Source: Defluviitaleaceae bacterium
GTDB taxonomy: Bacteria > Bacillota > Clostridia > Lachnospirales > WRAX01
Length of the DNA stretch: 40,715 bases
Assembly: GCA_009780485.1 (NCBI GenBank)
Contig: WQZZ01000006.1
Span: 1-40,715, forward strand
Direction: 5' to 3'
Below, one piece after another: positions 833 through 40,715 of this stretch (position 1 is the stretch's first letter; each line of letters starts with the position of its first letter). The translations under genes and the position numbers were made by a program. The notes under the pieces are model-generated. The model was given only the letters and a program-made list of their open reading frames with translations. It was not told where the DNA came from and did no database searches.

Positions 833-918
833 CCGTCATTGCGAGGAGCGAAGCGACGAAGCAATCTCTTTCCAGATGACGTGAGATTGCTTCGTCGCTT
901 CGCTCCTCGCAATGACGG
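833..918. repeat. Perfect palindrome ending CGTCATTGCGAGG (MITE/REP-like)
   Basis: Two perfectly complementary 36-base arms (833-868 and 883-918) surround a 14-base loop. The outer ends read CCGTCATTGCGAGG and its complement. The same outer end, CGTCATTGCGAG, recurs on the palindrome at 34491-34583. Such CGTCATTGCGAG repeats are, as I recall, scattered through many unrelated bacterial genomes. It lies in the 3' flank of the YugP gene and could fold in either transcript. Confidence 0.85.
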
Positions 919-920
919 AC

Positions 921-949
921 AAAATGCCCTTCTTATGAAAGGGCATTTT
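921..949. terminator. Bidirectional rho-independent terminator
   Basis: The stem AAATGCCCTT/AAGGGCATTT is followed by a T run on the plus strand, suiting termination after the YugP gene. On the minus strand it overlaps the last codons and stop of the 60-residue gene at 933-1115 and also ends in TTTT, so it probably serves both convergent units. Confidence 0.75.
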
Positions 950-1115
950 TGTTTATTTCTTCATGGATTGTTTTTAATTCTTTTTGTAAGCGTTCTAGGA
1001 TTTTGATGCTTTCGCAATCTTTTGGGTTGTCATGTACGTTTATGAATTTTTTTGTTGTGATGAAGAAGTTGCCCAAAAACTCAATAAAAGCTAGGGTACG
1101 GGTTTGGTTTTCCAT
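933..1115 (-). CDS. Small protein of unknown function (60 aa) behind structured leader
   Basis: A 60-residue protein beginning MENQTRT. I do not recognise a family. It has a hydrophobic aromatic stretch at about residues 9-22 and a charged amphipathic helix at about 37-56 (ILERLQKELKTIHEEI); there is no signal peptide. The case that it is real comes from its surroundings: a consensus promoter at 1294-1322, a conserved structured leader, a ribosome site AGAGGTGA eight bases before ATG, and a terminator at its end. A second gene with the same first eleven bases (ATGGAAAACCA) and the same leader begins at 40591. After the MENQ start the two proteins share only a loose pattern (LxTIxEE-like helix), so homology is uncertain. 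It may be a regulator, a structural small protein or a regulated peptide; no function is claimed. Confidence 0.7.
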   Translation of the reverse strand: MENQTRTLAFIEFLGNFFITTKKFINVHDNPKDCESIKILERLQKELKTIHEEINKNALS

Positions 1116-1287
1116 AAGTTTTTCACCTCTTGTCTAAATTTGGTGTTGCAAATTAGACCTAGATGAGGTATAATCATCCTAGGTCGTTTTTTGGCTTTGT
1201 TTTGCACATTGGGCGGGTTGTGACTTGGTGAGGTCTCCCGCCCTATGTGCGACAATTGGAACAAAGTAGCCACGGCAGTGAACCACT
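1116..1287 (-). promoter_or_regulatory. Conserved structured 5' leader, copy A (candidate RNA switch)
   Basis: Read on the minus strand from a predicted start near 1287. Stem P1 pairs GGCT..TTGTT (1260-1271) with AACAAAGCC (1193-1201). Inside it, stem P2 pairs GCACATAGGGCGGG (1237-1250) with CCCGCCCAATGTGC (1204-1217); its loop contains ACCTCACC. Then comes a conserved AAAAAACGACCTAGG and hairpin P3 (1156-1185, GACCTAG/CTAGGTC). The 3' arm of P3 can instead pair downstream: GTCTAA with TTAGAC and ACCTC with GAGGT (1125-1169), which would bury the ribosome site. The loop of that second hairpin begins TTTGCAACACCA, identical in copy B at 40430-40590. The pairings differ in sequence but are kept between copies. 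Structure was inferred by eye, not folded by software. Confidence 0.75.
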
Positions 1288-1293
1288 ACCATA

Positions 1294-1322
1294 ATTATAC
1301 AAGGTTACATTCCTCTTGTCAA
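1294..1322 (-). promoter_or_regulatory. Strong sigma-A promoter for leader A
   Basis: On the minus strand, TTGACA (1317-1322) and TATAAT (1294-1299) are separated by exactly 17 bases. Both hexamers match the housekeeping consensus perfectly, as they do in front of leader B (40395-40423). Transcription should begin near 1287. Confidence 0.88.
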
Positions 1323-17393: not shown

Positions 17394-17525
17394 GTTTTAT
17401 ATTTTTTGAGCAAGACTGTAAGCCGGGTTCTGTTCAGTCATTAAGACTTCGGCAATCATCTATCTTGGCTACACGTCACCGCATAGCTCATGCGGAGCTA
17501 CGGAAGCAGAGCGGGCAACCCTTAG

Positions 17526-17642
17526 GTTTGTAGCGGAATTACACTGAACCAATTTATTCGACGTGATAGCGACAACTGTTTCCGCAGGAAACAGTGATAG
17601 CGTGCGTCGAATAAATTGCGTGAAGTGTTTTCGATACAAACC
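17526..17642. repeat. 117-bp palindromic element (family B), copy 2, inside rnpB
   Basis: GTTTGTAGCGG at one end and CGATACAAAC at the other pair with each other; inner arms CAATTTATTCGACG and CGTCGAATAAATTG, and a central ACTGTTTCC/GGAAACAGT hairpin complete a long stem. It is homologous to 8128-8242. In the RNA it forms or extends P16/P17, replacing a normally variable arm. Confidence 0.88.
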
Positions 17643-17733
17643 AACGCTTCCTCCCTTGCATCAGGCGGGGTTTACATTTGCCACCACTGTCCCCAGTGAT
17701 GCGGTAGGCTCTTACCCTACCTTTCCACCCTTA

Positions 17734-17776
17734 CCAAGGATGATTTTTCATCCAAAGTATGAAAAATCATCCTTGG
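17734..17776. repeat. Perfect 18-bp-arm hairpin in rnpB variable arm
   Basis: CCAAGGATGATTTTTCAT pairs perfectly with ATGAAAAATCATCCTTGG around a seven-base loop. It occupies the arm between the conserved ACCGCC and GGTAAGGGTGG segments (P12 by position). The perfect pairing suggests a recent expansion. Confidence 0.8.
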
Positions 17777-17925
17777 CGGTTTATTTCTGTTGCACTTTCC
17801 CTAAGGTCACCCTCGGCAGACGTTATCTGCCGCCTTGCCCTACGATGCCCGGACTTTCCTCACCCCCAGATAGCGACAGCGGTTTGGGAGCGTAATTGCC
17901 CGTCTTACTCATATTTAATAATGAC

Positions 17926-40166: not shown

Positions 40167-40252
40167 AACGACCATTCACACCCCAAACAAATGATATGAC
40201 TATTAACATCCTCAACAAATGATATGACCATTGATATCCTCAACAAATGGTA
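40141..40252. repeat. Four tandem 28-bp repeats at the kinase 3' end
   Basis: Units start at 40141, 40169, 40197 and 40225, each like TGACCATTCACATCCTCAAC followed by AAATGATA. The first unit codes the kinase ending MTIHILNK and its stop; three lie downstream. The last unit runs into the TGGTAG end of the next element without a gap. Confidence 0.92.
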
Positions 40253-40350
40253 GGGGCGGGCATTGCCCGTCCTAGTTCGATTGGCAGTATTGTCCAAACC
40301 AAGTCACTAGTGCCAGCTAGACATGGGACGGGCAATGCCCGCCCCTACCA
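40248..40350. repeat. TGGTAGGGGC element (family A), copy 4
   Basis: 103-bp palindromic element with ends TGGTAGGGGCGGGCATTGCC and complement. Its middle (GATTGGCAGTATTGTCC) matches copy 1 and is inverted relative to copies 2 and 3. It begins in the last 28-bp unit and ends 44 bases before the promoter of leader B. Confidence 0.9.
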
Positions 40351-40394
40351 GGATGAGTGGTTATTAATATTGAAGTGCCGTTGTTAAAAAGTGC

Positions 40395-40423
40395 TTGACA
40401 ACGGTTAGATTTTCGTATATAAT
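40395..40423 (+). promoter_or_regulatory. Strong sigma-A promoter for leader B
   Basis: TTGACA (40395-40400), 17 bases, TATAAT (40418-40423): a perfect consensus, as for leader A. Confidence 0.88.
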
Positions 40424-40429
40424 GGCGAT

Positions 40430-40590
40430 ACGTGCTGGTTTTTCTGCAAAGAAAAAACGCAAGACAGGTTGTCGAAATTGAAACCTCACACCTGTCTTGC
40501 ACACAACCAGCCGAAAAAACGACCTAGGTGTATTATACACCACTTAGGTCTAATTTGCAACACCATTTTTAGACCTAGGAGGTGAACCAA
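40430..40590 (+). promoter_or_regulatory. Conserved structured 5' leader, copy B (candidate RNA switch)
   Basis: P1 pairs GCTGGTT (40434-40440) with AACCAGC (40505-40511). P2 pairs GCAAGACAGGT (40459-40469) with ACCTGTCTTGC (40490-40500); its loop ends in ACCTCAC. After AAAAAACGACCTAGG comes P3 (40521-40550). The 3' arm of P3 can instead form a stronger hairpin (40538-40584): CACC with GGTG and TTAGGTCTAA with TTAGACCTAG, closing a loop that begins TTTGCAACACCA and covering the ribosome site AGGAGGTGA. Every element of leader A is present in order, with different stem sequences, which supports the RNA structure. Confidence 0.78.
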
Positions 40591-40715
40591 ATGGAAAACC
40601 AGTACACAAACAACAACATAAACCACCGTAGCATGATGCAAACAGACATGTGGACACAGCTATTCGACTTAATAACAAGACTTGTAACCATCGAAGAAAA
40701 CCTATACGGCAAGAA
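40591..40715 (+). CDS. Small or N-terminal protein of unknown function, cut by window end
   Basis: Starts MENQYTNNNINHRS with AGGAGGTGA six bases before ATG and continues as an amphipathic helix (WTQLFDLITRLVTIEENLYG) to the end of the window, 41 residues in, without a stop. The first eleven bases equal those of the gene at 933-1115. Total length and family are unknown. Its asparagine-rich start and helix give no clear match. Confidence 0.65.
   Translation, partial: MENQYTNNNINHRSMMQTDMWTQLFDLITRLVTIEENLYGK

Follow-up and report, generated by a model that had tools for sequence, protein, structure and literature searches.

A multi-copy family of convergent-promoter elements in a Defluviitaleaceae bacterium, proposed as cis-antisense RNA switches that each have their own recognition loop

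Two structured leaders near opposite ends of the window (the whole stretch of 40,715 nt that was analysed, contig 6 of a draft genome of 2,043,854 bases in 169 contigs) belong to an amplified family, in which each copy is probably a cis-antisense RNA switch with a private recognition loop. The host is a gut-type bacterium with ∼74 copies of the element in its 2.04-Mb draft genome. In the proposed mechanism, a sense promoter would drive the leader and, usually, a small gene, and a reverse promoter inside hairpin P3, ∼150 bp downstream, would fire backwards to give an antisense RNA covering the 5′ part of the leader. This RNA is predicted to fold into a strong P2 (and P1) hairpin whose tip presents a recognition loop of ∼20 nt. 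Once the loops had kissed and the two RNAs had paired along their whole length, the cognate sense transcript alone would be silenced, so that many paralogous genes could be kept off independently of one another. Direct occlusion of the ribosome site is unlikely, because the antisense start would lie upstream of it, in P3; the more likely routes are premature termination, a collision between polymerases or cleavage by RNase III. Both promoters, the hairpins P1, P2, P3 and P4, the strand bias of P2, the hypervariability of its loop, the constrained genes and the spread as a unit can be read from the sequence; from these we infer that both transcripts would be made and would pair, that pairing would repress, and which step it may block.

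Leaders A (1116-1322, minus strand) and B (40395-40590, plus strand) were found where the earlier note had placed them, both strands being read. In each, the perfect TTGACA-N17-TATAAT sense promoter ascribed to it is present, as are the stems P1 and P2, one nested in the other, the block GGTCTAATTTGCAACACC and the start ATGGAAAACCA. The difference in paired bases is also as described (GGGCGGG/CCCGCCC in leader A, GACAGGT/ACCTGTC in leader B). Copy A is organized as follows.

1317..1322, minus: sense promoter -35, TTGACA (sequence)
1294..1299, minus: sense promoter -10, TATAAT, at N17; predicted sense start near 1287 (sequence)
1260..1266, minus: P1 5′ arm, CTTTGTT (stem analysis)
1237..1250, minus: P2 5′ arm, GCACATAGGGCGGG (covarying helix)
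1218..1236: P2 apical loop, 19 nt, hypervariable (as measured in the AbrB class), proposed private recognition loop
1204..1217, minus: P2 3′ arm, CCCGCCCAATGTGC (covarying helix)
1195..1201, minus: P1 3′ arm, AACAAAG (stem analysis)
1156..1185, minus: P3 hairpin, GACCTAGGATGATTATACCTCATCTAGGTC, overlapping the antisense promoter
1169..1174, plus: antisense promoter -10, TATAAT, at N17 (sequence)
1146..1151, plus: antisense promoter -35-like, TTGCAA (TTGACA in other classes) (sequence)
1132..1158, minus: P4 hairpin, GTCTAATTT/AATTTAGAC, directly upstream of the ribosome site
1124..1129, minus: Shine-Dalgarno, GAGGTG (sequence)
933..1115, minus: gene, 60 aa, MENQ-type small helical protein

The antisense start of copy A is predicted near 1181, directed into P1/P2. 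A palindromic repeat (CATTGCGAGGAGCGAAGCGACGAAGCAATCTC, window 837-920) lies just 3′ of the gene. Copy B has the same parts.

40395..40400, plus: sense promoter -35, TTGACA (sequence)
40418..40423, plus: sense promoter -10, TATAAT, at N17 (sequence)
40434..40440, plus: P1 5′ arm, GCTGGTT
40459..40469, plus: P2 5′ arm, GCAAGACAGGT (covarying helix)
40470..40489: P2 apical loop, 20 nt, hypervariable
40490..40500, plus: P2 3′ arm, ACCTGTCTTGC (covarying helix)
40505..40511, plus: P1 3′ arm, AACCAGC
40521..40550, plus: P3 hairpin
40532..40537, minus: antisense promoter -10, TATAAT
40555..40560, minus: antisense promoter -35-like, TTGCAA, at N17
40545..40577, plus: P4 hairpin, TAGGTCTAA/TTAGACCTA, having bases in common with the P3 3′ arm
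40577..40582, plus: Shine-Dalgarno, AGGAGG (sequence)
40591..40715, plus: MENQ-type gene, incomplete at the contig end

The residues encoded by the incomplete gene are the first part of a complete 68-aa protein on another contig (L022). An inverted repeat (GGTAGGGGCGGGCATTGCCCGTCC) occupies 40249-40351 of the window and is dispersed beside many copies of the element.

The conserved 3′ block of the element (P3 plus a TTTGCAA or TTGTCAA box) reads on its reverse strand as a sigma-70 promoter aimed at the sense promoter. It takes the form TTGACA/TTGACT/TTGCAA-N17/18-TATAAT, occurs in every class and is kept across classes with differing P3 sequences. The sense promoter is near-perfect too (-35 TTGACA in 64 of the 74 own copies), and the two promoters converge at a distance of ∼150 bp. 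The earlier note had treated the 'invariant' blocks as a signal of the leader only, a view that gives way to that of an embedded antisense promoter: a reverse -10 box of at least 5/6 at spacing 17/18 is found in 87 of 114 copies versus 2.7 (maximum 8) in shuffles, this box and its spacing being the real test because the hexamers helped to anchor the copies. In the 74 copies of the host genome, the reverse -35 is TTGCAA (32), TTGACA (32) or TTGACT (10), the spacing is 17 (31) or 18 (43), and the -10 is TATAAT (46), TAGAAT (10) or close to these, reaching at least 5/6 in 69. The relatives have TTGACA as reverse -35 in 36 of 40 copies and a -10 of at least 5/6 in 20 of 40, some of them (G012) having weak boxes. 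The TTGCAA of the A/B class matches the consensus at only 4/6 and is its own reverse complement. No terminator common to the antisense RNAs emerged: one that overlaps the sense -35 is present in 19 copies versus 13.8 expected, not clearly above shuffles, and is striking in L106, L096, L004 and copy A. Two gene-less copies, L025 and L027, bear in their 5′ part a forward CCTAGGTGGTGTATAAT box that resembles the antisense promoter and gives tandem forward promoters; in L027 it is a palindromic promoter of the TTGCAA-N17 type.

The multi-copy family suggested in the earlier note exists on a larger scale than claimed. A leader 18-mer allowed up to three mismatches has 28 sites in the host genome versus 3 for the reversed control, and further classes were recovered by covariance model and pattern searches. 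After removal of duplicates and orientation of the copies by covariance model, required since the element is promoter-symmetric, 74 copies in the host genome and 40 in relatives make a total of 114. The relatives are six genomes of the host's own bacterial family (G001, G002, G005, G008, G012 and G015), and among 295 genomes of the host's order the tail pattern is confined to that family, save for one match by chance in G180, around which there is no element. In named genomes the pattern matched only by chance, inside a coding sequence. Comparison with Rfam 15 gave no match of the leaders to any family at the gathering threshold, in line with the earlier statement that neither a known riboswitch nor a T-box was recognizable, and relaxation to E≤10 gave weak unrelated matches only.

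In many pairs of copies, similarity sets in ∼10-30 nt ahead of the sense -35 and ends ∼35 nt beyond the gene, so that the unit duplicates as a whole. Contig 14 of the host genome (L171, L172) holds a prophage with terminase, portal, head-tail adaptor, tape measure, holin and endolysin genes and with several copies of the element, one directly before the head-tail adaptor gene. The elements on the IMG/VR contig IMGVR_UViG_2820537337_000003 look identical to those of contig 14, and leader B had no match in plasmid and phage records.

The conserved structure proposed from two copies holds for P1 and P2, which covary, and not for P3, which is mostly conserved in sequence within the A/B class because it is also the promoter of the other strand. 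In an alignment of 24 copies (P1, P2 and P3), 83.4% of pairs are standard, where shuffles give 77.9 ± 0.6 and slid versions 27-39%. Double-changed cells number 50 versus 16.6 ± 3.4 in shuffles. The signal comes from P1 and P2, in which both partners have changed in six and seven pairs, respectively; P3 is almost constant in this class.

An A·C mismatch on the sense strand is a G·U pair in the antisense RNA. The P2 fold appears to be kept mainly on the antisense strand, since interior mismatches in 83 distinct P2 stems are of the A·C type (28) rather than of the G·U type (4); these stems were seeded from Watson-Crick pairs only, as allowing A·C everywhere over-paired the A/C-rich leader. Many of these A·C pairs occur at one position (GGGCGG/CCACCC), common by descent, which is C-G, U-A or C·A depending on the copy and U·G once. 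Counted by eye as likely independent events, they amount to roughly 11 A·C versus 4 G·U, and to ∼10 versus 3 outside that position (by eye and without a tree). Imperfect pairs are neutral in P1 (4 G·U versus 3 A·C) and lean to the sense strand in P3 (9 G·U versus 5 A·C), which the antisense RNA would hold only in part. P2 is more stable as antisense than as sense RNA in 102 of 112 copies (mean -24.5 versus -21.1 kcal/mol), an edge partly due to the A/C-rich sense strand, which alone favours the antisense. In gene-bearing copies, P4 lies between the reverse -35 and the ribosome site and its sequence differs among copies (arms CTTCTTGTCAA/TTGACAACAAG, TTGTCAAGCA/TGCCTGACAA, GTCAAGCAA/TTGCTTGAC and GTCTGA/TCAGAC). 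P3 and P4 are mutually exclusive through common bases in the A/B class and not in all other classes, so that a simple riboswitch-like toggle is not general.

The P2 apical loop is ∼20 nt long in nearly all copies and its tip differs in almost every one. In the four closest pairs of the AbrB class, synonymous differences of 0.08-0.11 accompany loop differences of 0.33-0.52 (L083/L102, 0.080 and 0.33; L024/L111, 0.096 and 0.36; L104/L114, 0.105 and 0.36; L089/L104, 0.106 and 0.52), and the P1 3′ side together with P3 differs by 0-0.18; gene conversion of the gene and P3 could exaggerate this contrast with the loop. Over 22 pairs, loop identity is 0.57 versus 0.49 for shuffled loops, at a gene identity of 0.89. 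The motif YUNR is enriched on both strands in the central 10 nt of the loop (0/500 shuffles), with frequencies of 0.62 versus 0.29 (sense) and 0.70 versus 0.52 (antisense). For loop-loop antisense systems, YUNR in the recognition loop of either RNA is described as ubiquitous, and mutations of the loop as giving rise to new incompatibility groups (PMC4485353).

Behind most copies lies a small gene that is under purifying selection. The cargo comprises AbrB/MazE-fold proteins (PF04014), single or in tandem and in several genera, MENQ-type helical proteins, secreted proteins with Cu_amine_oxidN1, a zinc-ribbon-like membrane protein and others without an assigned family. Median dN/dS is 0.22 for MENQ and 0.11 and 0.29 for two AbrB classes. 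In Pfam, the AbrB-type proteins match PF04014 MazE_antitoxin, weakly MraZ and nothing else, with no match to a SymE protein family. The MENQ proteins have no significant match in Pfam, where Rop is also without a match, nor in PHROGs or PADLOC. The predicted structure of one MENQ protein is a two-helix hairpin (AF2, mean pLDDT 84) whose best PDB matches are Rop variants, at a non-significant E of 1.3 or worse, so that likeness to Rop is a lead only. About 17 copies of the host genome have no gene behind them, which is why the element is not only a leader; most end in an intrinsic terminator, and the same is seen in G012. What stands of the earlier reading is a structured, multi-copy RNA family foreign to Rfam and placed before small genes; what does not is a one-strand leader of the riboswitch or T-box kind.

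The element resembles type I toxin-antitoxin and plasmid antisense control systems and belongs to no family tested. An antisense RNA with its own promoter is a mark of type I toxin-antitoxin systems, and such a promoter can be read from the sequence (good reverse -10 in 87/114), the antisense RNA itself being predicted. In the E. coli type I system SymE-SymR, the gene encodes a small protein of the AbrB/MazE fold and is faced at its 5′ end by a cis-encoded antisense RNA (PMC1891008). The same arrangement is predicted here; however, the SymR promoter is inside the coding sequence and that of the element in the leader, the proteins match MazE_antitoxin and not SymE, other copies have unrelated cargo, and there are ∼70 copies. 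With plasmid copy control (ColE1 RNA I/RNA II with Rop, R1 CopA/CopT, pT181) the element shares opposed promoters, a stable antisense hairpin, the YUNR motif and, as proposed, a recognition loop that sets specificity; unlike these systems, it is chromosomal and in ∼70 copies, with no replication gene seen and no Rop match by sequence. TTGGCA occurs at several sense tips and nearly matches TTGGCG, the loop sequence of loop-loop attenuator chimeras (PMC3753616). The element is similar to Gram-positive type I systems (Fst/Ldr and those of B. subtilis) by its small-gene families, predicted cis-antisense RNAs and predicted convergent transcription. It differs from them in RNA architecture and in its main cargo classes, which are not short membrane peptides as those toxins are. 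Hairpins ahead of the ribosome site in a structured 5′ leader are also a feature of riboswitch and T-box leaders, but the element has no Rfam match, no conserved ligand core and a convergent antisense promoter.

Antisense RNA control is mostly known from single plasmid or toxin loci. A broader and more tentative reading is that of ∼70 mutually insulated chromosomal antisense-RNA switches on one scaffold, with loops diversified under selection against cross-talk. These switches would control families of AbrB-type regulators and of helical hairpin proteins that resemble Rop, and copies without a gene would act in trans as decoys or antitoxins. If true, ∼70 copies with their own loops on a common scaffold would be a natural experiment in the evolution of RNA pairs without cross-talk, a question that synthetic biology studies with small hand-made sets. 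Dozens of AbrB-type regulators and small proteins without assigned function would be tied to antisense control, and the loop-specificity hypothesis would be directly testable by loop swaps.

That the element is a cis-regulatory leader working through the sense RNA only, with ligand or protein sensing, translation controlled by P3/P4 and a reverse promoter that is a by-product of P3, is unlikely. The covariation of P1/P2, the position of P4 directly before the ribosome site in gene-bearing copies and the bases common to P3 and P4 in the A/B class are compatible with it, but it has to accommodate a hairpin whose tip is its most variable part, where a conserved ligand-like core is missing, P2 imperfections of the antisense type, ∼17 gene-less copies, and two hexamers recurring at 17/18 spacing across classes with different P3 sequences. 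Control at the DNA level, through interference between convergent promoters, with the P3 palindrome as an operator for the encoded AbrB-type proteins and with inert RNAs, is very unlikely. AbrB-fold proteins are usually DNA binders, P3 is a dyad that overlaps the reverse promoter and varies by class, and L027 bears a similar palindromic promoter facing forward; this account nevertheless leaves unexplained the conserved RNA hairpin, its hypervariable loop of constant length and the strand bias of its imperfect pairs, and many cargo proteins are not AbrB-like.

A low probability is likewise given to a dispersed MITE-like repeat or promoter cassette that spreads as a unit, carries genes along as passengers and has no regulatory role. 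High copy number, the frequent position at contig ends, similarity that in many pairs ends just outside promoter and gene, nearby palindromic repeats and copies in a prophage would all suit it. Covarying stems, P4 with the ribosome site and cargo under purifying selection show instead selection on function, and where similarity boundaries were examined, no terminal repeats common to the copies were noticed beyond the promoter boxes. The antisense switch with a private loop is the preferred reading.

In eight copies (L061, L070, L075, L133, L134, L154, L009 and L021) the Shine-Dalgarno is kept and ATA, ATT, ATC or GTT-like triplets stand in place of ATG; these may be lost starts or unusual starts, and L009 and L021 have in common the peptide IIDVDKI, read from ATC. 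The gene-less copy L079 (contig 7 of the host genome) lies upstream of a gene resembling aspartyl-tRNA synthetase. Elsewhere in the window, 17403-17911 (minus strand) encodes a bacterial class A RNase P RNA (Rfam RF00010, 277 bits).
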